Assembly: GCF_000001735.4 (NCBI RefSeq)
Contig: NC_003070.9
Location: 5,332,001 to 5,396,000, forward strand
Reading direction: 5' to 3'
DNA from: Arabidopsis thaliana
Taxonomy: Eukaryota > Streptophyta > Magnoliopsida > Brassicales > Brassicaceae
Length of the DNA stretch: 64,000 nucleotides
How positions within the stretch are numbered: the first letter of the stretch is position 1; every line of letters begins with the position of its first letter. The position numbers were made by a program, and so were the translations under genes. Positions 35,374 to 53,057 of this stretch are shown here, piece after piece. The notes beneath the pieces were generated by a model that had not been told where the DNA came from, ran no database searches, and saw only the letters and a program-made list of their open reading frames with translations.

Positions 35374-36514
35374 ATGGACAGCGAATCCCACAGTGATAAT
35401 GATGATCACATAATCGACATTACAAACGATGAAGATTCTTCATCAAGATCGTCTTTGGACGAGAGAAGCTATCCTTCATTAAGTTCGTCTCTGTCTACGG
35501 ATGACGAATCGTCAGATGAAGGTGCAAGTTCATCTACGAGAGACTGTGGTAGTCTTTGGAATATAATGGAATTAGTAGTCACTTTGGTTCAGATTGTTGC
35601 ATCATTAATAGTTTTAACTCTGGCAAAAGATGAACATCAACAAGCACTTTTGTTAACATGGGTCATCGGTTACACTTGTGGCTGTATTACCATTACGCTC
35701 CTTATTCTCCTCTCGTGTGTCCGCAAATACAACCGAATTGGTGTTTACTCAAAAACGAGGTATAATAAACAACACTTGTTTCACTTAACATTAAGAGTTT
35801 AATTAGCTAAATCAAACCGAACCGTTGTTGGTGGCAGAACGGATAGGGTAATGGATGCTTTGAAGATGGGGAATGAATGTTTCTTTGTTGTGTGGTTAGT
35901 TATGGGGATTCTATGGATTTGTTATGGACACTCATCTTCTTCTGATACTCCTAAGCTCTACAGGTTTGACTCACAATCATGTCACAGTAGAGATTTAGTT
36001 AAACCCTAACTAATCAGTACTAACTTTTGTCTTCTTGATTATGTTTTGGCAGGTTATGTGTAGTCTTCATTGCTTTCAGTTGCATTAGATTTGCATATGC
36101 ATTACTATTATGCGCAGGTATTTTTTTCGCTTAATGTTCACTAGAGTTTGGAACATTTTTTTCTCATATCTATGATGTGGATAAGTTGAAATCAAATGAT
36201 GTAGATTCTGTAAGGGAAGGTATAGGAGGTAGATTTGTTTTCAAGAAACCGAGCCATGATGATGTGAGTAATAATTTCATATCACATTAATTACTCTGTT
36301 TTAAATAGCATTTTTTTGTTGTTGTTGTTGTTTAATTTTCATGGTTTGATGGTGTGTGCAGAGTTGTTGCATATGCTTGGGGAAATATGGAGAGGAAAAA
36401 GGAGTAGGACTAAGGAAACTTGAATGCTCACACGTATTTCATTCGCAATGTATAGACAAATGGCTGAAAATCAAATCCACATGCCCTCTCTGTCAATCAC
36501 AAGTTAGGTGGTGA
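35374..36514 (+). CDS. Gene A: multi-pass membrane RING-H2 protein (putative E3 ubiquitin ligase)
   Basis: First and only RING-bearing member of the seven-gene array. Five exons, 35374-35759, 35838-35963, 36053-36117, 36205-36263 and 36362-36514, give 262 residues. An acidic Ser-rich N-terminus holds one copy of the family motif (DHIIDIT). Hydrophobic spans follow: MELVVTLVQIVASLIVLTLA, WVIGYTCGCITITLLILLSC, FFVVWLVMGILWICYG and LCVVFIAFSCIRFAYALLL. The last exon encodes a RING-H2 finger with ligands Cys214, Cys217, Cys234, His236, His239, Cys242, Cys253 and Cys256, plus Trp246, so all zinc ligands are present. Membrane RING-H2 proteins usually act as E3 ligases at endomembranes; the target is unknown. 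I start at ATG 35374, not the in-frame GTG two codons earlier. Introns 1 and 2 have the same positions and phases as in B-G. Confidence 0.88.
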
Positions 36515-36922
36515 TGAGATGAGGTTGATTTTTTTTTTATTTTTTTTTCGCTCAAGAGTAATTGTACACATTCAATAAACAAAAGTGGTGGGAAACTGAA
36601 AGATACGATCCTGTCTTCTTGTGTTGTCTGTCTTAAAACAGAAAATAAATATCATACAGATCATTTGACCTATTAACAATTTAACTTGTCCAAAACATCT
36701 GCAATATATATAAACATTGAAATCTCAGCTTTGATCTTCATTTTTCAAAATAATGTTTTATTTGTAACACGACTAATACGTACTTAGTATTGATCTGGTC
36801 TAAAAAAATACTAATAATTTTATCAACAAAGAAGGAAAGGTATATGCTTTGTGCTCGTCAACGCAAATTTGAATGAACTTTTCATTTGATCGGCAAGAAA
36901 TAGGAAAAACCAAAAGTGATCA

Positions 36923-37761
36923 ATGGAGGGCCCTTTGTTGAGCGAGTGTGAACACATCATTGACATTACAAGCGATGGTAGTTCTTCATCAATTGATGGT
37001 CAGCAACCACACGAGGGTGTTGAATTGGGTGATCCATACACAAATGAAAGCATTTGTAATTCAATCGAGTTTGTTGTGACTTTGGTCTTGATTGCTGCGG
37101 TCATAATCGTTCTGATTGAGCCAAGAGATGAAGAACATCCACAAACAATGTTGTCTATATGGATCATCGGTTATACATGTGGCTGTATTGCCACTCTCCC
37201 TATCCTATGTTGGCGTTTTTGGCTTTATAACCGAAGCGTTGGCTCCGAATCTACAGATGAATACTTAAGAGAGACAAGGTATATATAAATTGTGTTTTCT
37301 TTTATCTTTTTATGCATTAGATTGAGATATAATGGTTTTATTGGTTTGCAGAATCAACAAGGATATGGACTTTTTTATGACGGGTTTCTTCGTGGGTTGG
37401 TATGTGGTGTTTTTATGGATTCTTTCTTCCAAAGCATTCGACTCATCAGCTCTAGATGATACTACAACTCAATACTTCTGGTGCGTATCAAACGAAATTT
37501 CCAATCATATGTATACCTTAAAACGTATATATTGACCTTTCTTATACTCATGCCTTTGGCCTTCTTCATTGTCTCTTTTGCAGGTTATGTTTGGCTCTCC
37601 TTACTTTCAGTTGCATTAGATATGTTCTTTTTAATCTAACATTGGCAATGGTCTGTTATACTACTCCTTTGCTTTTACTTACGCCTGTGGTCATATGTGT
37701 TCTCCTTGCTGTGGAAGTCTTAAAAGGCATTGTAGCATGCATTGTATCATGCATCTGCTGA
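36923..37761 (+). CDS. Gene B: RING-less paralogue, multi-pass membrane protein
   Basis: Three exons, 36923-37278, 37352-37480 and 37584-37761, give 220 residues. It begins MEGPLL with one N-terminal motif copy (EHIIDITSDGSSSS). Membrane spans are IEFVVTLVLIAAVIIVLI, WIIGYTCGCIATLPILCW, FVGWYVVFLWIL and, in exon 3, LCLALLTFSCIRYVLFNL plus a further long hydrophobic tail (LLLLTPVVICVLLAVEVL) ending CIVSCIC. Where gene A splices on to its RING exons, B reads on into hydrophobic sequence and stops. Intron phases (AG|A and TG|G junctions) are identical to gene A. Function unknown; a membrane partner or decoy of RING member A is possible but not shown. Confidence 0.82.
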
Positions 37762-38792
37762 AATCGAACTAATAAAAATATTTTGTTTGTAAGCCTAGGA
37801 GAATGGGCGTTTAAAATCAAAGTAAAGCAGAGTACCAGAATAAAAATGTTTTGTGTTCATGTTGATGATTTTAATCTTATTAAGGTAGAGAAAAACAGTA
37901 GCTAAGGTTTTTTGAAATGATCAAATATGATCATCTCGTCTTATTTCCTCTTTTTATTTTATTTTTCTCCCTCGTTAATATTATTCTCCATTAAATGACA
38001 GTTTTGACTGACCATTCTTATTCGTGCGTTTTCGCTATTCAGATATGTATTTTAAGGGCCCGTACTTTAATGGGCTTTTTAAAATCTGACTTATTTCGAG
38101 TCGAGTCCTACCTCATTGTGACATTTACCCAAATAATCACGTGTTTCAGAATAACCTTTTATAGGCCTTATTATTTTGACAGATTTGGGTAAATCGAAAT
38201 GGATATATAGATAACTTTAACACCAAAGATAAGATAACTAAGAAAAATAATAAAATATTATAGTTTCCCAAATAATAAAATTTAACACCAAAGATTTCTC
38301 CTTTTACAAAAAAGACATATTACTTCTTCTAGCTTCCCAAATAATACATCAAGCACCAAAGAATTAGGAAGACTATAATTTAGAACCAAATATTTTGAAA
38401 TTTTACTCTAACGGGCTACAATTGACTAATAATTGGTCTTGGTGTAGGTAAAACAAAAACACACAAAACAAATGTAGCTCCGAAAGTCTACTCATTGTAA
38501 AGGACTTTATGTGATTGACTTAGAATTGGTATTGGTGTCGATTAGGTCTTAAGATAATAATATAGCTGGAAATGTCTATTATTCGTATTTAGAGAAGAAT
38601 GACTAACTTTTTTTTTGTTCGTTAGAAGTTTACAATTGACTTATAGAATAGATCTTGACGTAGATTGGGTCTTAGAATAATAATTTAGCACCAAAGAATC
38701 GGAGAGGGCTTTATGTAATTTGTATTTCAACGCTTGTTTAGATGAACTATTAATTCGATTGGACAAAATAGAAGAAAGCAAAAAAGTGATCA
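37762..38792. other. Intergenic B-C with family upstream module
   Basis: Contains the 3' flank of B and, at 38636-38790, the conserved upstream module shared by C, D, F and G (TTGACTTATAGAATAGATC, then AATTTAGCACCAAAGAA). No RING-exon relic was recognised here. Confidence 0.5.
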
Positions 38793-39679
38793 ATGGAGGG
38801 CCCTTTGTTAACCAAGAGTGAGCACAACGTCGAAGACGTTACAATCCATGGCGATTCTTCCTCAAATGATGAGCACATCATCGACATTACAATCAATGGC
38901 GGTTCGTCATCAGCTGATCATGAGCAAACTCCACATGAGGCATTTCAATGGAGTTGTCCATTTACAAGTGGAAGTTTCTGGATTTTGGTCGAGTTAGCTG
39001 TGACTTTGGTCCAGATTGTTGCAGCCATATTTTTTCTGATTCTAACAAAAGATGAACGAGATCCAGAACTAGATGTAGCTTTGTTTACATGGATCATCTT
39101 TTATACTTGTGCCTCTATTGCCACTTTGCCTTTTGTATGTTGCCGTTTATGGCAGTATATCCAAAACGCTAGCTCAGAGACAAGGTATAAACTGTGTTTC
39201 TTTTTCTTTTTCAGGCATTAGAGACTGATATCCTCAACAATGGTTTTTATTGATTTGCAGCAACGAGGTGATGGAGTACCGTTTGGAAAATTTTCTTGAA
39301 TCTTTCTTCGTGTCCTTGATTGTGGTGTCTTTATGGCATATTCTAACCGAGTCATCATCACGTCAAGATACTAGTCGACACTTCTGGTGCGCATCTAACT
39401 AAATTTACAATTATGGCTAAACAACATAATTTACCTCTCTAGAACTAACAAATGTCCTTTTCCAGGTTATGGCTGGGTCTACTTGCTTTCAGTTGCATTC
39501 GATATGTGCTTCCTAATTTCCAATTTACCGTACAGTTATTCATGTTGCCTGGGGTGTCCCTTGTTACTGCACTTGTGGCCGCCATAGTAACGATGATTAA
39601 TTCGTTACTCTCACTCTTTTTGGTCATCATTGGACTCTTTGCGTTAACCTTTTCGTGGATCATTGGAATGTGCGGATAA
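38793..39679 (+). CDS. Gene C: RING-less paralogue, multi-pass membrane protein
   Basis: Three exons, 38793-39184, 39261-39386 and 39466-39679, give 243 residues. It begins MEGPLLTKSEHNVEDVT and has two N-terminal motif copies (HNVEDVTIHGDSSS and HIIDITINGGSSS). Spans include ILVELAVTLVQIVAAIFFLIL, WIIFYTCASIATLPFVCC, FFVSLIVVSLWHIL, LWLGLLAFSCIRYVLP and a long C-terminal hydrophobic stretch ending IIGMCG. It is closest to F in the N-terminus, membrane core and exon 3, and the two also share their 3' flanks. It lacks RING exons; a RING-like relic lies about 500 bases downstream. Confidence 0.82.
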
Positions 39680-40195
39680 AAATGATGGATCATGTTGTTT
39701 TCTTCAACAATTGTTGTAATACTCTCTTTCTATTTATTAAATAAAGCCAAGTGTCATTAGCATTACCGAATCCTCTATTCCTGAAATGGCCGGCAAAACT
39801 GAAACTAAAGGCTTCTCTGTACCAATATCTCTGCAGCAAGATAAACATTTCAGTATCTGCATTTCAACATGTACAACTGGTTTGTCTATTGTAAAAGGCC
39901 TCTTTGGCCATCTTGATGAAGCGCTTCATGTTGAGACAGCATGTGGCACGCCCGACAATTCTTTTTAAGAGTGCACCCATAACATATATGTTCTTATGCT
40001 ATCAAACAACCCACAAGGAACCTGAAGATGATAACTACTTGATAGAGATGATATGACTTCAATCAATCTCGATCGGGTTCGGTTAAGGGCACTAATAGAT
40101 AACCTGCTATATGGGAGTGTGAAGACCATTAATTGGTTTTTCACATATATATGACTGAAGAAATCAGCCGTAACCAAATATTAGTGTTTTTGCAT

Positions 40196-40270
40196 CAGTT
40201 GGGGCCTTGGGGGTCAATTATGGAGTGGAATAATACATGAAAACTTGAATGGTCGCATGCAGAGCAGAGG
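40196..40270 (+). pseudogene. Decayed RING exon relic between C and D
   Basis: Nucleotide similarity to the RING exon of gene A in order: a CTTGGGG block, then TATGGAG-GGAA, then AAACTTGAATGGTCGCATG against gene A's AAACTTGAATGCTCACACG. In that frame it reads KLEWSH where gene A has KLECSH, so a zinc ligand is replaced, and an in-frame TGA precedes it. Too short to be certain. Confidence 0.4.
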
Positions 40271-41552
40271 TAGCCTTTAAATTAAAGCACACATCAAAAT
40301 GTAGTGCAATGTTGCGAACTTTTATTCAACTAAACAATTTAACACTCGATCTTTGTGCGCCAATACCTCTGCACAACAAACAATTTAATCTCATCAATAT
40401 GATCCGATTTTGAAGAACCACCTTCTTCTTCAGTGACTTCTCTGGCTACCTTCCATTAACTGTCGCTGTCATAACGACGTGGAAGTTAACTTAATTGACT
40501 TTTAAAAGATTAATGATGCTGTATATTGGTCTTAAAATGGCACAAAAGGTTCCGTCTAGGCTTTGTGTTTCACTTTAAGTCTATAACTTAAAAAAAAAAA
40601 ACTACTAATTTAGCACCAAATAATATCATAACCATTTTATTATAAATGACTATAATTAACGTAGAATTGGAATTGGTCAGTTGGTCTCGAGATAATAATT
40701 TAGCTCCAACGAATCGGACATATCTATGCTTTTATGTTTTTTTTTGGGTATAAGAATTTGTTATTAATTCTTATACCAAAATTATAGATATGATATTGTT
40801 TTATTTTAAAACAAAATAAATAATATATATATGAATGGTTTGATCTGATATTGGTTACGGTTAGGATACAAATTTTAATCCTGATACCATAGAGGTTTTA
40901 TTAGTTCAATTTTCTTTCCGTTTGTTTATGCTCAACTTCAGATTCGTTGTCTTGCAATATTAAGATATGGTTCAATTATTGAGATATCATTTCAGTTACG
41001 TTCGCATCCGATTTGTTTAAGGTAATTGTAATGTTTTAATGATCACTTTTATTTGAATTCTGAAAATTGAAGTTTTAAAGATATTTTTTAAATAATCGAT
41101 TTCAACAAAATAGAAAGAATTGTAATACATATTTTTTTTATCATAATATGAATTTTATATTTAATAGAAAGTTTCGATTATGCATTTAATTTCATACAAT
41201 TGACTTTTCGACTGTTCATTTTTTTTAATTTTATTTTACAACGACTTTTAGACACTTCTTAGCACGAAAGAACTAAACGCAACATGTGCTTTGTAATTAA
41301 ACGTCGAATGAATATGAATTATATTTGACCTAGGATTACGAATGATGTCGATCTGGAGTAATAATTTAGAACCGAACGACGACTTCGAAATATTACAATT
41401 GACTTATAGAATAGATCTCGACGTAGATTGGTCTTAAAATAATAATTAAGCACCAAAGAACTGGAGATGGCTTTATGTGCTCTGTGTTTTAAAGCGGATT
41501 AATAAGGACTTTTAATTCGATTGGGGAAAATAGAAGAAAGCAGAAGTGATAA
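40271..41552. other. Intergenic C-D: family flanks and AT-rich filler
   Basis: A 'CCAATACCTCTGCA' block near 40360 repeats the 3'-flank pattern seen after C and G, suggesting that the relic at 40196-40270 was once the end of a gene unit. A minus-strand segment at about 40380-40470 is open and protein-like but has no partner exon. The upstream module of gene D spans about 41390-41552. Confidence 0.4.
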
Positions 41553-42476
41553 ATGGAGGACCCTTTGTTGACTCAGAGTGAGCACATCGTCGATGACGTT
41601 ACAATCCATGGCGATTCTTCTTCAAATGAAGAGCACATCGTCGACGTTACAACCAATGGCAATCCTTCATCAGCTGATGAGAAAAGACCGCATGAGGGTG
41701 TCCAATGGAGTGATATATTTACATTTACCACTGTTTGTATTTTGGTCGAGTTTGTTGTGGCTTTAGTCCAGATTGTTGCCGCCATTGTTGTTCTGACTCT
41801 GGCAAAAGATGAACAACCTCCACAAAAAATGTTTCCTACACTGATCCTCAGTTATACCGGTTGCTGTATTGCCACACTCCCTATTCTAGGTTTGCGTTTC
41901 TGGCATTCTTACCGAAGTGTTAGCACAGAGACAAGGTATAAACTATAATTTGTATGTTAATTATTTGTTTTAAAGGCATTAGAAACCGAAACCGATATAG
42001 TGGTTTTATTGATTTGCAGAATCTACGAGGTGGTGGACATTTTGAAAAAGATGCTTGAATATTTCTTCGTGGGTTGGGTTGTGGTGCTTTTATGGCATCT
42101 TATCAACAACTCATCATCTATAGATAATACTACGCAACAGTTCTGGTGCGCATCAGAAGAAAATTATAACTATATATTCGTGTCCCGAAAACAGACTAAA
42201 TTAACGAAGTCTCTCTAATAATACCACCCTGCATTTTCCTTTTGCAGGTTATGTATGACTTTCCTTGCTATCAGCTGCATTCTACATGTTCTTCGTAATC
42301 TCCCCTGTGCGGGAGTTTGTTTTCTGTATCCTATGATACTATATCTTTCCCAATCGATAGACTTCGTTGGTGACATTACTGATGAGATAAATTTGACTAC
42401 GTCTATAATCCTATTATGCTTTGGAATCTTTGCCTGCATTATCTGTGGTTGTTGTTCCAGATGCTTATGCAGATAA
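41553..42476 (+). CDS. Gene D: RING-less paralogue, multi-pass membrane protein
   Basis: Three exons, 41553-41935, 42020-42145 and 42248-42476, give 245 residues. It begins MEDPLLTQSEHIVDDVT and carries two N-terminal motif copies. Membrane spans are ILVEFVVALVQIVAAIVVLTL, LILSYTGCCIATLPILGL, FFVGWVVVLLWHLI, LCMTFLAISCILHVL and IILLCFGIFACIICGC, with a Cys-rich tail CCSRCLCR. Exon 3 is strongly like that of G (shared NLPCA-x-x-CFLYPMI and SQSIDF/TQSIDF). There is no RING sequence. Function unknown. Confidence 0.82.
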
Positions 42477-42934
42477 AAAGAAGAATGATCATGTCGCTTT
42501 CTTCTTTCTTTTGTTTAAAATGTTGTAATACTCTATTTATTTATCAAATAAAGCCAAGTGTCACGATTGAATCCTATATATCTTCCTGAAATTGTTGGTA
42601 TAAAAGAACAATTTAGCGCCAGCGAATTGGAAAGGTCTATGTTTTGTGTTTCAAATTCAATAAACAAAAGCGACTTTATATAATTGGTTTTGGTGTAGTT
42701 GGTCTTAAAATAATAATTTCACCAAATAATTTGAAACAGTCAATGCTTTGTGTTTCATTGTAGAATATACTATAATTTAGCACCAAGTAGTTCAATAGTT
42801 ATTTCATTGTAGGAATACCATAATTGACTTAGGAATGGTCTTGGCGTCTAATTTGAAAGGTCTATATATGCTTTGTGTTGCAACGCAGATTTTGATTGAA
42901 TCCAAGAGAAGTAGAAGAAAATCATAAGTGATTA

Positions 42935-43655
42935 ATGGAGAGCCCTTTGTTGAGCAACGATGATGAGCACATCGTCGACATCGACATGACAGCCGATGAC
43001 TATGCTTCATTAATTTATACGCTAGTATCAATTCCAATTGCAATTGCTTTGAACTCGATTGAGTTTGTTATGACCTTGGTCCAGATTGTCGTAGCCATAC
43101 TAGTTGTGAAAGGAACAAAAGGTGAATATCCAGAAGCAACATGGATCCTCGTCTATGCTTATGGTAGTATTGCCAATCTCCCTATTCTTTGTTGGCGTTT
43201 CTGGCAGATCCGTCATCCTGTCTCACACTTAAGGTATATATATATAACTTGTGTGTTCTTGTTTTTCTTTGTTCACGCATTAGAACCCGCAAAATGGATA
43301 ATGGTTTTTGATTGGTTTGCAGAATCAACCGAGTCATGTTTCGTTTGAGGACGATATTTGAATGTTTCTTTGCGGGTTGGTTCGTGGTGTTCTTCTGGGT
43401 CTTTGTTTGCAGCTCATCATCTCTAGACCATTCTAGTCAACTCTTCTGGTGCGCATCGAACAAAGTTTACAATAATGTCCCAAAAAAATACTTATGCTAC
43501 TCTCTCTAATATATATTCAACATTTGTCCATTTGCAGGTTATGTGTGGTTTTCCTTGTTTTCGGTTGCATTCGATATGTGCTCCCTATGGTAATATGTGC
43601 AGCGACGTGTTGCTGTGTGTTTATGACGTTATGTTTTAACGCCGTTAACACTTGA
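42935..43655 (+). CDS. Gene E: shortest RING-less paralogue
   Basis: Three exons, 42935-43233, 43323-43448 and 43538-43655, give 180 residues, the smallest of the array. It begins MESPLL with one degenerate N-terminal motif (EHIVDIDMTADD). Spans are IEFVMTLVQIVVAILVV, ILVYAYGSIANLPILCW, FFAGWFVVFFWVFVC and LCVVFLVFGCIRYVLPMVIC. Exon 3 stops early (FNAVNT), so the extra C-terminal helices of C, D, F and G are missing. It keeps the array's intron phases. It could be functional or an early stage of decay; frame and splice sites are intact. Confidence 0.75.
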
Positions 43656-44149
43656 GGATCGGAGTGATTAAACTCGTTGTGTCACTTATCCGTGGATTCC
43701 TTGCGAGATACAAATGGTGGATCATGTTGTTATCTTATTTCCTTTGCTCAAAAGTTGTTGCAATGCTCTTTGTTTTTCTCTTTTTTGAATGAAATTGTTT
43801 CTTTGTTTGAAATAAAGCCAAGTGTCATTACTGAATCTTCTCGTCTTGCATGTGTATCAAATTACCTCGGCAAGAGAACATTTTAATCATCTGCATTTTC
43901 CACAAGTCAACAACTAATTGCCTTTATAAACTGTCAAGAGAACGCTAGAACTCATTAATGGAGAGACTCAAAAGGGTTTCATAAAAAAATAATATATATA
44001 TATATATTAATTAATTTAATATTGTTTAATTATATATGTAAAATTTATATATTTTTAAAGAATCAAACCATTAATAATGTGAAACTTGTTTGGAGAGGTT
44101 CTAAAGAAATTATTAAAGGTATATCATTTGAAATACATGTATATATAGG

Positions 44150-44450
44150 ATTCAGAAACTGAAATCGATAATGGTTTGATTAATTTGCAAAATAAACGAG
44201 GTGATGGACAATTTGAAAATATGGTTACCATGAAAGTACAGAATTATAAAAAGCTTTTATTCATATTGTTATTATTATATAGATTAGTCTTTCGTTATAT
44301 GTTTTTCTTCTATCTTTGATTAACGGTAGTTTTTTTTTTTGGTGGATAATTTTAATGGTACGTGTTGATCCACCTGCTTGAGAAAATATGGAGAGAAAGA
44401 AGATGGAAAAACGAGGAAACTACTCGCTTGTATTTTCATTGTAACGGATG
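44150..44450 (+). pseudogene. Decayed member of the RING membrane family
   Basis: 44150-44225 matches intron 1/exon 2 of the array (AATTTGCAAAATAAACGAGG against D's GATTTGCAGAATCTACGAGG), with the acceptor AG mutated to AA. 44370-44450 matches gene A's RING exon: it reads TCLRKYGEKEDGKTRKL against gene A's ICLGKYGEEKGVGLRKL, after which the frame loses the Cys/His ligands. Exon 1 and the third exon are not recognisable. This is good evidence that a RING-bearing copy once stood here. Confidence 0.75.
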
Positions 44451-44987
44451 ACAATATAATTGACTAATAATTGATCTTGGTGTAGGTCAAAAAAAAAACA
44501 AAACAATTTAGCTCTGAAAGTCTACTCATCGTGTTCAACTGTTCATTGTAAAAGACTACATGTAACTGATCCCAAAAACAAAAAGACTACATGTAATTGA
44601 CGTATTGTTGGTGTTGATTCGGCTAAAAAATAATAATTTAGTTGGAAATGTCTATTTTTGTATTTTATTGTAAAAGACTATAATTTAGTTGTTATTTTAC
44701 AGTATAATATACAATTGGTTGAGGAATCACTATTTGTTAAATTGTAATGTACCTTTTTTTTTAGTATTATAGATGTGTTAGCATTCAGAATCAACCTCAT
44801 ATAATACATATTCACATCGACTAGTGTACAAGTGAATTTTAGAATAGATCTTGACTTAGATTGGTCTTAAAATAATAATTTAGCACCACAGTATTAGCTA
44901 GAGAGCCATGTGATTTGTATTTCAACGCTGGTTTAGATGAACTATTGATTAGATTGGACAAAATAGAAGAAAGCAAAAAAGTGATCA

Positions 44988-45938
44988 ATGGAGAGCCCTT
45001 TGTTGACCAAGAGTGAGCACAACGTCGAAGACGTTACAGTCCATGGCGATCCTTCCTCAAATGAAGAGCACATAGTCGACATTACAACCAATGGAGATTC
45101 TTCACCAGCTGATGAGCACATCGTGGACATTACAATCAATGGCGATTCGTCATCAGCTGAAGAGCAAACTCCACATGAGGCTTCTCAATGGAGTTGTTCA
45201 TTTATAAACGGAATTGTCTGGATTTTGGTCGAGTTAGCTGTGACTTTGTCACAGATTGTTGCAGCCACATTTTTTCTGACTCTGACAAAAGATGAACAGC
45301 ATCCAGAACTAAATCATGTACCTTTGTTAATATGGATCATCTGCTATACTTGTGCCTCTATTGCCACTGTACCTATTGTATGTTGCCGTTTATGGCAATA
45401 TATCCGAACCGCTAGATCAGGGACATGGTACAAACTGTGTTTCTTTTTTTTTCTTTTTCTTTCAGGCTTTAGGACTGATATCATCAATAATGGTTTTTAT
45501 TGATTTGCAGTTACGAGTTGATCGGTTTGGAAAATTTTCTTGAAACTTGCTTCGTCTGTTTGGTTGTGATGTTTTTGTTGGGTTTTTTAACGGAGTTATC
45601 ATCACGTGATCCTAGTACTAGTCAACACTTCTGGTACGCATCGAACTAAATTTCAAATTATGTCTAAACAGCGAAGTTCACCTCTCTGAAACTAACCAAT
45701 GTCCTTTTCCAGGTTATGGCTGGCTCTAATTGCTTTCAGTTGCATTCGATATCTGCTTCCTAATCTCACATGTGTCAAAGAGTGCTTCGTGTGGCCTGTG
45801 CTTTTCCTTGTTAAACAACTTTGGGAAGGCATAATAGCAATGATTGATGCGTTAACTGCACTCATTGGGCTCATCATTGCAATCATTGGGTACATCTTAT
45901 TTTTGATCCTTTCAATCTTTATGTACATCTGCGGATAA
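44988..45938 (+). CDS. Gene F: RING-less paralogue with three N-terminal motif copies
   Basis: Three exons, 44988-45427, 45511-45633 and 45713-45938, give 262 residues. It begins MESPLLTKSEHNVEDVT. The N-terminal motif occurs three times (HNVEDVTVHGDPSS, HIVDITTNGDSSP, HIVDITINGDSSS), the most of any member. Spans are ILVELAVTLSQIVAATFFLTL, WIICYTCASIATVPIVCC, FVCLVVMFLLGFL, LWLALIAFSCIRYLLP and a long C-terminal hydrophobic stretch (IGLIIAIIGYILFLILSIFM). Its intron 2 donor is GTACGC, against GTGCG in the other RING-less members. It is the closest sister of C, including the 3' flank. Function unknown. Confidence 0.82.
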
Positions 45939-47076
45939 AAATGATGCATGGATCATGTCGTTCTCTTCAACAATTGTTGTAATACTCTCTTTCTATTTAT
46001 CAAATAAAGTCAAGTGTCATTAGCATTACTGAATCCTCTATTCCTGAAATCTTCAGCAAAACTGAAAGATCTCTGGCAAATAAACATTTTAAGTGTCAGC
46101 ATTAAACAATGCGGCTTTGTCTTTTGTAAAAGGGCTTCTTTTGTCATCCTGAAAAAGCGCTTCATGTTGAGAAAACATGCGCCATGCCCAACAATTCTTT
46201 TGAGATCGTTGAGAAAACATGTGCTAGGGTTGGACATAAAACCTGAAATCCAAAATCCGATCTGACATCGATCCAAAAAATAGTTATAAAATTCCAACGA
46301 AAAAATAAATTATTCTATCTAAATTATCTGATCTGAATCCGATACGAACCGAAAACCGAAAAGATATATAAAACCTCAAAATAAAATTATATATCAAAAA
46401 TTATTAGTTATATTTAGTTAGAGTTTTATATTCAAGATTACTAAATAACAAAATTATCCAAAATAACCTAGATATCCTAAATTTTTTTAGTTTTATTTAT
46501 TAAAATTATACATTTTTTTGTAAAGAGTAACCAAATTTTTCGTAAAACTAAAACAAATTTTTTACAAAATTGAACTGCCGGATTATTTTTTTTTGCAAAT
46601 GTTCTCATTTGAAGGAAGAATTTGAGAGAAAAATAAAACACTAGTTAACAATTGAAACTTAAGACCGGTCTTAAAATAATAATTAAAGGGAAACACTAGT
46701 TTAATATTGAAACTTTAGGCCGGTCTCAAAATAATAATTTAGCACGAAATAATTAAGGCAACATGTGCTTTGCACTTCAACGCGGAATCATATGAATTAT
46801 ACATTGACTTAGGATTATTATTGACGTCGATTCGGCCTTTAAATTATAATTTAGAACCAACCATAATTATAATATCACTACAATTGGTTAGTATCAAACA
46901 ATTTAACAACTGTTAAATATCACTGCAATTGACTTTTAGAATAGATCATGATAAAGATCGGTCTTTAAATAATAATTTAGCACCAAATAATTAGAGAGGC
47001 TATGATTTGTATTTTAAATCGGTTATTTATGGACTTTAATTTCGAGTGGGAAAATAGAAGAAAGCAAAAGTGATCA

Positions 47077-48027
47077 ATGGAGGGGCCTTTGTTGACTAAG
47101 AATGAGCACATCCTCGACGACGTTACAATAATCCATGGCGATTCTTCCTCAAACGAAGAGCACATCGTCAACATTACAACCAATGTCGATTCTTCATCAG
47201 ATGATGAGCAAACACAGGATGATTGTGGTGATCATTTGAGACGTATAATAGCTCTTTTTGTGGATGAAGGGTGTGATGGATTTACATCTAGTCATGTTTG
47301 GGTTATGGTCGAGTTTGTTTTGACTTTGCTCCAGGTTGTTGCAGCCATTGCTGTCCTGACTCTGACAAAAGATGAAACAGATCCACAGAAAGTGTTTCGT
47401 ACACTGATCATCTGTTATACCGGTGGCTGTATTGTCGTGCTCCTTATTCTAGGTTTGGATTTCTGGGATTATTGCGGAAGGTATAAACTATAATTTGTTT
47501 ATTCTTTGTTTTTAAGGCATTAGAAACCGAAATCGATAGATAACAGTTTCTTATTGATTTGCAGATTCTACGAGGTGATGGAGAATTTGAAAAAGATGCT
47601 TGACTATTTCTTCGTGGGTTGGGTTGTGGTGTTTTCATGGCATCTTATAAACAACTCATCATCTCCAGATAATGCTACACAACAGTACTGGTGCGCAACA
47701 ATACTAAATTTTCTAACTATTTAGTATGTCTCGAAAACAGAGTAAATCTCTCTAATGATGATAATCCACCATGCATTTTCCTGTTGCAGGTTATGTATGG
47801 CTTTCCTTGTTGTCAGTTGCATTCTACATGTGCTTCCTAATCTCCCCTGCGCGGCGGCTTGTTTTCTATATCCTATGATACTTCGTCTTACCCAGTCTAT
47901 AGACTTCTTTGATGACATTACTGAAAAGATAGAGGACATTAACTGGTTAATCTTTGTATACTTTTTTGGAATCTTCTCCTGCATTATCTGTTGCATTTTT
48001 ACTTGTTGCAGCAGATTATGTAGATAA
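47077..48027 (+). CDS. Gene G: RING-less paralogue, last of the array
   Basis: Three exons, 47077-47480, 47565-47690 and 47790-48027, give 255 residues. It begins MEGPLLTKNEHILDDVT, with two N-terminal motif copies, then a unique insertion rich in Asp and Cys (DDCGDHLRRIIALFVDEGC) before the first span. Spans are VMVEFVLTLLQVVAAIAVLTL, LIICYTGGCIVVLLILGL, FFVGWVVVFSWHLI, LCMAFLVVSCILHVLPNL and WLIFVYFFGIFSCIICCI, with tail CCSRLCR. It is sister to D in exons 2 and 3. No RING exon or relic was seen downstream. Confidence 0.82.
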
Positions 48028-48906
48028 AATGAAGAATGGATCATGTCGTTTCTCCTTTCTTTTGTTTAACAATGTTGTAATACTCTTATCTATGTATCAA
48101 ATATAAAGTCATGACTCATGACTGAATCCTCTCTTCCTGAAATCGTTGGCCTGAAAGACACGATGCTTACGTCCCAATTACCTCTGCATGGACGAGCTTG
48201 TGAACCGCATGTACAAGTATCCATTCCTTTGTTGGTCCTAGAGCTGATCCATTCCTGCATACGAATTAATAATCCAATTCAAAGAGAGAGTAGTAGACCG
48301 TGAGTTCAAGTCTTCTGAAGCAGCATCACGTTTGAACCACGTTATCGATCGGTTCAGTCTTCAACTAAAGTGAAGTCTTAGGTGTATGAAATGTAACTAA
48401 TTAGTCTTCCAACAACACTTAAAACTCATAAGAGCAAAACTTCTTTTAGGAATAAGTAAAACAGAGCAGAAGAAGCAGTCAAGTTAATCGGGATTACCAA
48501 GAACCAATGGTCAACCTCCAAATTCTTCAAATTTCCTGGAAAAACACATAAGGGGGAAAGCAAAACACCAAATATAAACACATTCCTCGAGCGCTTAACT
48601 ACGTAACAACAATATTATCAATATTGCATGATTACAACTCTAAATCTCTATATATTTTGATGATCTATAATTTTTTGCTTTGATAAAATAAAGTTATGAT
48701 CTTTGATTTAAAAGTATAAAAAGATTTGGAATAGGAGAAAAAAAAAAAGCAAAATATAGATATAACTGAAATTCATAGTTGCAAAAGGGGAAGTGGAGAA
48801 CTGGAGTTCGTGGGTGAACGGTTAAGAAAGGTTGGCTGGTTTGACATTATTGGTCCATCATGCAACAATAATATATTAAGAGTTTAGAGGATAAGAATTT
48901 CAACAA
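48028..48906. other. Intergenic: 3' flank of gene G and upstream of tRNA-Ser
   Basis: The first 250 bases repeat the array's 3'-flank module (GTTGTAATACTC, then GACTGAATCCTCTCTTCCTGAAAT). The rest is AT-rich. A CAA motif stands just before the tRNA gene, as is typical for plant tRNA transcription starts. Confidence 0.5.
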
Positions 48907-48988
48907 GTGGACGTGCCGGAGTGGTTATCGGGCATGACTAGAAATCATGTGGGCTTTGCCCGCGCAGGTTCGAATCCTGCCGTTCACG
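48907..48988 (+). tRNA. tRNA-Ser (anticodon AGA)
   Basis: An 82-base cloverleaf. The acceptor stem GTGGACG pairs with CGTTCAC, and the discriminator is G. The anticodon stem CATGA/TCATG closes loop CTAGAAA, with anticodon AGA. A long class-II variable arm (GTGGGC...GCCCGC) and T-loop GGTTCGAATCC are present. The B box is intact and a T-run terminator follows directly. Confidence 0.95.
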
Positions 48989-49229: not shown

Positions 49230-52200
49230 ATGGCTGATGTGAGCCGGAGTTCAAGTTTATATACCGAGGAGGATCCCCTTCAAGCTTACTCAGGGCTTTC
49301 GTTGTTTCCTCGCACACTAAAATCCTTGTCGAATCCTCTTCCTCCTTCTTATCAATCAGAAGATCTACAGCAGACTCATACTCTCCTTCAATCTATGGTA
49401 AGCTCTTGATCTGCTTAAACCTTCGATTTTGATGCATTAGCTAGGGTTTGGTTTCCTCAGTGAGTAATTAATTACGGAGACGATTCGAGTTTGTGATTTT
49501 GACGGTTACGAAATCAATTTCAAATCTGGCTGATTTAATCGTATCCGTGCTTTGTTTCTTCTCATCCGCTTCTGGGTGTTCCCAAATGACCAAGATGGAT
49601 GCTTTATTTTTTGGGTTTCTTCAATTAGGACGAAAAGTCTGTGGTAAACTGCAAATACTTAGCTGTTACTTTGAAATTTTAAGCAGCATGATTATACTGG
49701 ATAACTGTAAGGTTTAGGCGTTGTGTCTCAAGGAGGCACAATATCTCCATGTTTGCTCAGTATATAGCCTGCTAATGTACATTGGCTTCTTCCTATTCTT
49801 TTGGGTTAATGCTTTTCTTAGGGATTTAGTTGTGAAGAATTGCAGTACGAGAGTTTAGTAAACAAACTGCAGATTTTTACATTATTCTTTGTCGCTTGTG
49901 TATATTTTTTCTTTACTGACATATCAACTTCAGTATCTCAAACTAAATAATTGTCAAATTCTTGGCTTCTATCTTACAGCCTTTTGAAATTCAAAGTGAG
50001 CATCAGGAGCAGGCAAAAGCTATCTTAGAAGATGTGGATGTCGATGTCCAGCTGAACCCTATTCCAAATAAACGAGAAAGAAGACCGGGATTAGACCGTA
50101 AGCGAAAAAGCTTTTCTCTTCACCTTACGACAAGGTAAAGATCATAGCCACTGATCCATTGATTCAGTATAACAAATTTCTTTATTTGTTACTTTATCTG
50201 ATTCCTTTACCAAGTTAGTTGAAGCCTCTATCAAATATTCTTGTTGCAGTCAACCACCTCCAGTTGCACCAAGCTTTGATCCTAGTAAATATCCAAGATC
50301 TGAGGATTTCTTTGCTGCGTATGATAAATTTGAACGTGAGTTATAGAAGTATCTTTTCTGATGTTCATAGCCTTCCACGTTTATTATATAACTGTCATTA
50401 GCTGGATTTGAAACAGTTGCCAATCGAGAATGGCAGAAACAGACTGGCTCCAGTGTAATAGATATACAAGAGAACCCGCCATCAAGGCGCCCTCGCAGAC
50501 CAGGAATTCCAGGGTATGTACTATGAGCAACTCTGATAGAGCATGTTTAAGAGTTGTTCCATTTGCATATTTTGCTTTCTGTTTCCCTTGATGGTTACAT
50601 ACTTACATTTTCAATTTCCAGGAGGAAACGTCGTCCATTCAAGGAAAGTTTTACGGATAGTTATTTCACTGATGTTATCAACCTGGAAGCTTCAGAAAAG
50701 GAAATCCCCATTGCTTCTGAACAAAGCTTAGAGAGTGCCACAGCTGCACATGTTACGACTGTGGACAGGGAAGTAGATGGTGAGTGAGCACTTGTTAGAT
50801 CATTGTCGCTACCATTTTGTTAAATCATGCTACCATCTGATAGGGTCAGACACTGTGTTTTGCAGATTCAACCGTAGACACGGACAAAGACTTAAACAAT
50901 GTGTTGAAAGATTTGCTTGCTTGCAGTCGAGAGGAGCTTGAGGGAGATGGTGCCATCAAGCTTTTGGAGGAGCGCTTGCAAATCAAGTCCTTTAATATAG
51001 AAAAATTCTCTATCCCTGAGTTTCAAGATGTTCGAAAAATGAACTTGAAGGCATCTGGAAGTAACCCACCAAACCGAAAGAGTCTGTCAGATATACAGAA
51101 TATTCTGAAAGGAACTAACAGAGTTGCGGTTCGAAAAAATAGCCACTCGCCATCCCCTCAGACGATAAAACATTTTTCATCACCAAATCCACCAGTGGAT
51201 CAGTTTTCATTTCCTGACATCCATAATTTGCTTCCAGGAGATCAACAGCCTAGTGAGGTTAATGTACAACCTATAGCAAAAGATATACCTAATACATCCC
51301 CAACTAATGTAGGTACTGTAGACGTTGCTAGCCCTTTCAACGACTCAGTGGTGAAGAGGTCCGGTGAAGATGATTCTCATATTCATTCTGGCATCCATAG
51401 ATCTCATTTAAGTCGAGATGGGAATCCAGATATTTGTGTGATGGATAGCATTTCAAACCGAAGTTCAGCCATGCTACAGAAAAATGTAGATATGCGAACA
51501 AAAGGAAAAGAGGTAGATGTGCCCATGAGTGAAAGTGGGGCAAATAGAAACACTGGCGACAGGGAAAATGATGCTGAAATCAATGAAGAAACTGATAATT
51601 TAGAAAGGCTGGTTAGTTTCTCCTTCACTGTACGGGACTTTGTACTAACATATTTGGATCTCTTGTTGATTACATCTCTTGTGAATTTGTTTGTTATATA
51701 GGCGGAATGTGCATCTAAAGAGGTTACAAGACCATTTACTGTAGAAGAGGATAGCATCCCGTATCAGCAAGGTATTAAAACTTTTTGTACATGCATGTTA
51801 TAGCAAGATCTTAAAAAGTATAGTATATCTCCTAACTTAACTTGTCCATTAGATGCTTACTAGTTGCTACCATTAACATTTTCAGTCACCTTAAAATTGT
51901 GGCACGAAGGTTTTCTTTATGCCGTTATGTTGCCTACAGGTGCATCCTCAAAATCTCCAAACAGAGCTCCAGAACAATACAACACAATGGGTGGATCCCT
52001 TGAACATGCAGAGCACAATCAGGGACTACATGAAGAGGAAAATGTCAACACGGGCTCCGCTTCTGGACTTCAAGTAGAAAATGCTCCGGTTAGTTCCTCA
52101 TCATTGTCTCTTCACCTCTGTAGAGTCTTGATAATTAAGTCAAGGCCAATTCATCTTCATGTTGTTTCAATTGTTAGACTCGGTTCATTTTTTCTCTATC

Positions 52201-53057
52201 TTTATCCTTCGCTAAAGGTACTTTTAATTGCAGTAGTGTGCTGGATCCGTATGTTTAAATCCATGATAAAACTAACAATCTGTGTTTGTGTAAGGGTGTT
52301 AGTTCCGCTTAGGCTACTCTAACTATGAGCTTGCTTAACAAAATGAATTCGAGAGTTCTTGATTAACTTATTTTCAGCAGGAGGTTCACAAATATTCACA
52401 CAAACAAACAAATAAACGAAGAAAGAGAGGATCTTCTGATAGCAATGTGAAAAAGCGAAGTAAGACTGTGCATGGTGAGACTGGAGGGGACAAGCAAATG
52501 AAAACATTACCACATGAGAGTAGAGCGAAGAAGCAAACCAAAGGAAAATCCAACGAGAGAGAAGAGAAGAAGCCGAAGAAAACTCTTACGCATGAGGGGA
52601 AACTATTCTCTTGCAGGAAAAGCCTTGCTGGTACAGAAACTTGCCAATAAATACTAAATTCCATTACTCGTTCTTCAGAGCTGTTTCGTAGAAATATTAA
52701 ACCTGACATGTGTTCTTTTTTTTTTTGCCTTTGTCAAAGCTGCTGGTACTAAAATTGAAGGTGGTGTCAGACGAAGTACAAGGATTAAGTCGAGACCGCT
52801 CGAATACTGGAGAGGTGAAAGATTCTTGTACGGACGCATCCATGAGAGTAAGTCACATATTCGTTTTACGACATCGATTTCAATACGGATGTTTTTCAAT
52901 TCATAATTTATCTACTATTTCCATAGGTTTGACTACTGTTATCGGCATAAAGTATGCATCCCCTGGAGAAGGTAAAAGAGATTCGCGCGCATCTAAGGTG
53001 AAATCATTCGTCTCCGATGAGTACAAAAAGCTGGTTGATTTTGCCGCCTTGCATTGA
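49230..53057 (+). CDS. CENPC: Centromere protein C (CENP-C)
   Basis: Inner-kinetochore protein that binds CENH3 nucleosomes and anchors the outer kinetochore. Eleven coding exons: 49230-49397, 49980-50134, 50250-50335, 50417-50513, 50622-50779, 50866-51611, 51702-51771, 51940-52088, 52381-52630, 52740-52847 and 52927-53057. They total 705 residues. The diagnostic CENP-C motif ([19 protein letters not shown]) lies at about 637-655 in exon 10. The large exon 6 is Ser/Asn-rich and poorly conserved; a Lys/Arg-rich block precedes the motif. Only about 46 residues follow the motif, so the C-terminal cupin known from fungal and animal CENP-C is not evident. Exon 4 has a second in-frame acceptor 15 bases upstream (50402), and exon 9 has a CAGCAG tandem acceptor, so small isoforms are possible. 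Confidence 0.95.

Follow-up and report, generated by a model that had tools for sequence, protein, structure and literature searches.

A RING-less membrane protein family of Arabidopsis thaliana, including SYAC1, as a probable offshoot of the RING-H2 ubiquitin ligases

Introduction

SYAC1 of Arabidopsis thaliana connects auxin and cytokinin with the secretion of cell wall material and was described as a protein of unknown function (PMC7195429). The protein is found in the Golgi, the trans-Golgi network (TGN), endosomes and prevacuolar compartments, and its reported partners are YIP4a, YIP4b, YIP5b and ECH. Phenotypes of syac1 mutants have been reported, loss of SYAC1 improves the growth of yip4a yip4b plants, and the authors propose that the protein is a negative regulator of the ECHIDNA/YIP complex (PMC7195429). 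The SYAC1 family, as described in the same paper, consists of AT1G15590, AT1G15600, AT1G15610, AT1G15620, AT1G15625, AT1G15630 and AT1G15640, which are clustered on chromosome 1, and of AT1G44010. In this work, we analyzed the seven clustered genes, here called A to G in their order on the chromosome, in a window of 64,000 nucleotides (contig NC_003070.9, positions 5,332,001 to 5,396,000; all positions below are counted from the first nucleotide of the window), and we propose that the family originated from the membrane half of a RING-H2 ubiquitin ligase (E3).

Several other members of the family have entered published lists. C is in the late strong list of genes responding to N-hydroxypipecolic acid (NHP) and F in the late weak one (PMC11663584), and G appears among genes whose expression is induced at sites of downy mildew (PMC4498041) as well as in irradiation lists (PMC9697804). 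Overexpression of SYAC1 has been reported to increase susceptibility to clubroot. Clones of AT1G15600, AT1G15610, AT1G15620, AT1G15630, AT1G15640 and AT1G44010 from a stock centre have been used in yeast autoactivation tests (PMC5485742), and AT1G15620 was once listed as a candidate seven-span receptor (PMC1794564). Among membrane RING-H2 proteins, RING-dependent ubiquitin smears have been published for At1g80400 and At4g11680 (PMC4641371). The word RING is absent from the main text of the SYAC1 paper (PMC7195429), and a link between SYAC1 and RING ligases appears in no title or abstract opening found among the open-licence papers of PubMed Central, supplements not being covered; it may be in print elsewhere. 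The genes treated here are the same as those of the published family, to which we add the RING ancestry, the single loss of the RING and a dead RING exon.

Results and Discussion

SYAC1 shares its membrane core with RING-H2 ligases

The guide RNA published for SYAC1 (PMC7195429) has one match in the window, without a mismatch, at 36995-37014 in exon 1 of B, 73-92 bases from the start of this gene; the paper places the SYAC1 mutation 90 bp past the ATG. Because the guide matches the window once, and in B, gene B is SYAC1 (AT1G15600), whereas A and C to G are tied to their Arabidopsis Genome Initiative (AGI) codes by order only. All seven gene models, proposed in a preliminary description made from the sequence alone, hold at the coordinates given there, with GT/AG splice sites and open frames. 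The common structure of exons 1 to 3 noted there is likewise real, introns 1 and 2 being in phase 2 in 7/7 genes.

Gene A encodes a RING-H2 finger with all eight zinc ligands, which scores 51.7 bits against PF13639 (cut-off 27.3) and gives matches to solved RING E3s, while a Pfam profile search with all six proteins B to G returned no match to any RING model. The claim that A alone has a complete RING-H2 domain is thus borne out. A comparison of the RING exon of A with plasmid sequences gave no match.

When A and B were searched against the A. thaliana genome in six frames, the membrane core was found outside the array in At1g44010, which has no RING, and in At1g80400 and At4g32600, both with a RING in exon 4; the RIE1 group matched the core weakly (E 0.03 and above with B). 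These names were assigned from positions, and the RIE1 group is taken here to be At1g12760, At1g63170, At4g11680 and At2g01735. B and At1g80400 are 51% identical (E 5.9e-19), and the identity between A and At1g80400 is 48% in the first part of the core and 64% in the RING. The genes At1g80400 and At4g32600 each consist of four exons, their introns being in phases 2, 2 and 0; introns 1 and 2 are in phase 2 in the model of At1g44010 as well. The latter is a dispersed RING-less copy with an intact three-exon frame of 227 amino acids (aa) (locus L061, positions 1157-2005), so that a cluster of seven genes plus one dispersed copy agrees with the published family.

The kinship of the core together with the identical intron phases supports an origin of the family from a RING E3. 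The array resembles At1g80400, At4g32600 and the RIE1 group in the membrane core, in the two phase 2 introns and, through A, in the RING-H2 exon, and it shares an EHIVDIT-like N-terminal motif with At1g80400. In contrast to the type of At1g80400 and At4g32600, B to G and At1g44010 have neither a RING nor the charged linker, and A lacks a CCCLPC stretch and has an additional intron. By its RING-H2, core and introns, A would be classified as an At1g80400-type E3 with predicted ligase activity, whereas B to G have the homologous core and the same introns but no RING.

The RING of A has several unusual residues. Directly after the last Cys it carries Gln, where the alignment shows Lys in At1g80400 and At4g32600; there is also a two-residue insertion, and Glu replaces the usual Pro before the third Cys. 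In other RINGs, the Lys/Gln position after the last Cys affects the activation of the ubiquitin-conjugating enzyme (E2), for which reason A may be a weak ligase.

One loss of the RING suffices

In a protein tree of 141 core columns and 15 proteins, B to G and At1g44010 form one clade with support of 96/96. The support for this clade is 97/95 under a mixture model and 100/99 with DNA (10 rows, with the RIE1 outgroup left out), and two trees that break the clade by placing A inside it were rejected (approximately unbiased (AU) test, p-AU 0.012 and 0.014). Because the RING-less members form one clade, a single RING loss suffices for all of them. The repeated shedding of the RING that the preliminary description had assumed is not supported. 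E branches off first among the RING-less genes in the protein tree (87/86) and does not do so in the DNA tree of all positions; no early branching of E is claimed.

Dead RING exons in the array

Between E and F lies a stretch that matches the RING exon of A, with a stop in the RING frame. It scores 64, which was reached by none of 1500 dinucleotide shuffles (maximum 48; maximum 34 in another set of 60 shuffles), and is found by blastn with E 1.4e-7. A second match, downstream of C, scores 46, which was reached by 2 of 1500 shuffles (maximum 50; maximum 40 in the other set of 60); the highest of 46 scores of real-sequence tiles was 39, blastn did not list the match, and the same query was used in 12 region-strand comparisons in the array. 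We consider it a probable decayed RING exon. In both regions, the RING exon of A outscores those of At1g80400 and At4g32600.

Splicing of B to G to a distant RING exon was also considered. A tblastn comparison of ten family proteins with the seven stretches that follow the genes found only the stop-broken remnant between E and F in RING register. Downstream of E, at 43837-43978, a resemblance to the exon 3 tails of the relatives reached z 3.2 and 3.4; it is not claimed, because a control comparison (the RING of At1g80400 against 50000-53000) gave z 3.0.

Exon 3 and the fate of the tails

The membrane core is common to A to G by alignment. A Kyte-Doolittle scan gives three to six segments per protein, and in C, E and G one core segment each falls below the threshold used. 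The preliminary description had B to G read on in exon 3 into new hydrophobic segments, which needs a correction. In At1g80400 and At4g32600, exon 3 (280 and 289 nt) encodes the fourth span, a hydrophobic CCCLPC stretch and a linker, and since both nearest RING-bearing relatives have such an exon, the long, run-on exon 3 is the ancestral state. In the CCCLP register, E retains CCC and then stops, and B, D, F and G retain C-x-x-x-P. Beyond it, none of 14 comparisons of the tails of B to G with the relatives' linker was significant (50 to 314 of 500 shuffles were as good), so the far tails appear to be new or altered beyond recognition.

By the structure of its exon 3, it is A that is the odd member of the array. 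Its exon 3 ends after 65 nt and is followed by an 87-nt intron at a place where the exon 3 of the relatives is continuous, and the CCCLPC stretch and long linker are missing; both are features common to the relatives compared and not a known requirement of this ligase type. Intron 3 and exon 4 of A, taken together, score 36 against the distal exon 3 of At1g80400 (null mean 20.2, maximum of 300 shuffles 35). Taken alone against exon 3 of At1g80400, intron 3 shows no significant match (score 10 with shuffles up to 22, and 24 with shuffles up to 30 in a second comparison), nor does exon 4 (score 25 with a shuffle maximum of 31). In A, part of the exon 3 of its ancestor has probably turned into an intron.

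The N-termini also vary. The motif MExPLL stands at the start of 6/6 proteins B to G (the first positions of these genes in Table 1) and of At1g44010. It is not in A; At1g80400 has DPLL at the equivalent place, ahead of an internal Met. MExPLL resembles the dileucine motif that serves in the sorting of TPC1, a vacuolar channel. EHIVDIT-type acidic motifs occur twice each in C, D and G and three times in F, so that the N-terminus varies by repeat units; the extra copies in F lie in a 48-base tandem repeat of exon 1 (45062-45166; 2.2 copies, 85% match).

RING-less genes are maintained while their proteins change fast

Selection was analyzed with our own implementations, in which gene conversion is left out and the site models hold the branch lengths in fixed proportion. 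Among the pairwise rates of synonymous substitution (dS), the estimate for the N-terminus of A and At1g80400 is degenerate and the other large values are saturated, and none of these was used. For the core (127 codons, 10 genes), a two-ratio model gave a ratio of nonsynonymous to synonymous rates (dN/dS, omega) of 0.22 on the other branches and 1.10 in the RING-less crown (twice the log-likelihood difference, 2dlnL, 59.7 against one ratio), the latter not different from 1 (2dlnL 0.52). The values were 0.17, 1.09 and 1.04 when the stem was separated; when A was separated, they were 0.11 for At1g80400/At4g32600, 0.47 for A and 1.08 for the RING-less genes. Among the RING-less end branches, omega is lowest in E (0.72) and reaches 2.79 in C and 4.14 in G. 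In pairs, B and At1g80400 have an omega of 0.57 (2dlnL 6.3), and the codons of A and At1g80400 that follow the core have one of 0.17.

A mean omega of about 1.1, and of 1.00 on columns away from alignment gaps, would also be expected if the RING-less genes were decaying leftovers without function, and the preliminary description had named a dN/dS near 1 as a sign against a retained role. Frames, however, are unbroken in 7/7 RING-less genes (B to G and At1g44010), and none qualifies as a pseudogene. In the duplicate pairs C/F and D/G, 10/10 coding indels are multiples of three as opposed to 1/19 noncoding ones (Fisher 5.5e-7), and under neutrality a simple simulation predicts 4.4 and 3.8 stops, whereas none was observed (P 0.012 and 0.027). 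Together with the mutant phenotypes published for SYAC1 (PMC7195429), this makes decay very improbable. Because the frames are preserved, we read the average near 1 as fast or diversifying evolution: the genes are maintained while their amino acids turn over rapidly.

Positive selection is suggested, with C/F as the best case. Site models place 15% of core codons in a class with omega of about 4 (M2a/M1a p 2.5e-6; M8/M8a p 2.7e-7), but the top sites lie close to gaps in the alignment. When gap-proximal columns are left out (60 columns), the test gives p 0.046; the p values for C, D, F and G are 0.023 in the core and 1.9e-5 over all codons. The pairwise omega of C/F is 1.54 over all codons (not different from 1) and 4.79 in the tail (2dlnL 8.3). 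That of D/G is 2.34 in the core (2dlnL 4.9) and 0.50 in the tail (2dlnL 2.6, not different from 1). Compared with the surrounding noncoding sequence (82/577), exon 3 of C/F has diverged more (57/214, p 8.8e-5) and exon 1 has not (46/392, p 0.29); in D/G, coding sequence has diverged as much as noncoding sequence (p 0.81).

Such rates may point to an array shaped by pathogens that target secretion, in which the proteins would be inducible brakes or target decoys and the changing residues would meet pathogen molecules. The site class and the excess divergence of C/F are in line with this explanation, as are the induction of C by NHP, that of G at downy mildew sites and the clubroot susceptibility on SYAC1 overexpression. 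However, D/G shows no such excess in divergence or tail, the strongest sites are those near gaps in models that leave out gene conversion, and B responds to growth hormones; an immune-facing diversification seems quite unlikely as the explanation of the array.

A proposed path from membrane ligase to secretion regulator

We favour the explanation, to which we assign a probability of about 0.6, that an E3 gave rise, through its membrane half, to a fast-evolving regulator of secretion without catalytic activity. The ancestor of the array would have been a transmembrane RING-H2 ligase close to At1g80400/At4g32600, whose RING is retained in A. In the single ancestor of B to G and At1g44010, the gene would have come to end inside exon 3, which left the RING exon outside the coding sequence and exposed to decay. 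The four-span remainder, with MExPLL at its N-terminus and up to two more hydrophobic segments in its tail, would have been retained and multiplied, partly by the duplication of C into F (38627-39965 and 44823-46201, 78%) and of D into G (41396-42607 and 46926-48158, 77%). As published for SYAC1, a RING-less protein in the membranes of the Golgi, TGN and endosomes would bind ECHIDNA/YIP and slow the secretion of wall material. Presumably, the membrane core carries this binding, C to G and At1g44010 act like SYAC1, and the proteins, which without a RING would recruit no E2, act by binding and not by ubiquitinating. Members differ in the cues to which they respond, namely auxin plus cytokinin, salicylic acid/NHP and infection.

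Retention of the membrane part for a separate function is supported by the preserved frames, by the published expression of B, C, F and G and by the identity of B with a regulator of ECH/YIP. The further idea, also raised in the preliminary description, of a partner, decoy or regulator of A is not needed to explain the array, because the known partners of SYAC1 are ECH and the YIPs. In a wider form of that idea, the RING-less proteins would be dominant negatives that block ubiquitination by joining A, At1g80400 or At4g32600 or by engaging the substrates of these E3s, the effects on secretion being secondary. They do share the core with ligase-active relatives and adjoin A, and the ubiquitin receptor DSK2 was recovered in the SYAC1 pull-down; in yeast, however, DSK2 did not bind SYAC1 according to the text of that paper, or bound it weakly according to the legend (PMC7195429). 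We found no evidence of oligomerization or common partners of these E3s, and a core omega of about 1.1 in B to G is unlike what would be expected of a fixed interface with a conserved E3, which leaves the decoy unlikely.

Several observations weigh against the origin of a secretion regulator from an E3 as proposed above. The trees do not separate a position of A nearer to the RING-less clade from one nearer to At1g80400/At4g32600 (68/64 in the protein tree; p-AU 0.225). Nucleotide comparison gave no convincing RING trace after B, D, F, G or At1g44010, and the remnant between E and F may come from a separate, mostly deleted copy, because a piece of intron 1 and exon 2 that is most similar to D (82% to 41981-42048) lies just before it. 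The far tails of B to G are, as far as these comparisons go, without demonstrable homology, and the manner of the RING loss is itself inferred. The published protein-level evidence found for the family is confined to SYAC1, and if the RING-bearing relatives do not bind ECH/YIP, this binding would have arisen after the loss of the RING.

Features of the array and its surroundings

The features are collected in Table 1. In addition, the intergenic region between F and G holds a 55-base tandem repeat of 1.9 copies (46636-46739), and a tRNA-Ser gene with anticodon AGA (48907-48988) stands directly past the array.

Table 1. Genes, exons and exon remnants of the array in the analyzed window; AGI codes other than that of B follow gene order.
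Feature	Position	Strand	Description
Gene A (AT1G15590)	35374..36514	+	262 aa; four-span core and RING-H2; five exons: 35374-35759, 35838-35963, 36053-36117, 36205-36263, 36362-36514
Extra intron of A	36118..36204	+	exon 3 of relatives continuous at this place
RING-H2 exon of A	36362..36514	+	all eight ligands; PF13639
Gene B = SYAC1 (AT1G15600)	36923..37761	+	3 exons, 220 aa, no RING
Gene C (AT1G15610)	38793..39679	+	3 exons, 243 aa, no RING
Probable decayed RING exon	40186..40257	+	downstream of C
Gene D (AT1G15620)	41553..42476	+	3 exons, 245 aa, no RING
Gene E (AT1G15625)	42935..43655	+	3 exons, 180 aa, no RING
Remnant of an additional copy	44154..44219	+	last part of intron 1 and first part of exon 2; most similar to D
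Decayed RING exon	44364..44454	+	between E and F; stop in RING frame
Gene F (AT1G15630)	44988..45938	+	3 exons, 262 aa, no RING; duplicate of C
Gene G (AT1G15640)	47077..48027	+	3 exons, 255 aa, no RING; duplicate of D

Significance

Pseudoenzymes and non-catalytic paralogues of E3s, in which the catalytic part is lost and the binding part kept, are known as a general kind. The RING-less clade resembles them in having lost the catalytic part and in retaining and maintaining the binding part. Unlike them, it lacks the catalytic domain outright instead of carrying a mutated one, goes back to one copy that gave rise to a tandem family, and has left a dead exon behind. The family is a clean case of a catalytic domain that was lost once before the genes multiplied; a dead RING exon persists among them, and their dN/dS near 1 is no sign of decay.

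As the membrane half of a RING-H2 ligase, SYAC1 would gain a parent and a testable biochemistry. Its parentage raises the questions of whether ECH and the YIPs are bound and ubiquitinated by At1g80400, At4g32600 or A, and whether SYAC1 blocks this. A bolder version, which we regard as doubtful, would join a one-time RING loss, a membrane half turned into new secretion brakes on ECH/YIP and their diversification under positive selection as an immune-facing array; At1g80400, At4g32600 and A would then be unrecognized ubiquitin ligases of ECH/YIP with which the SYAC1 proteins compete.

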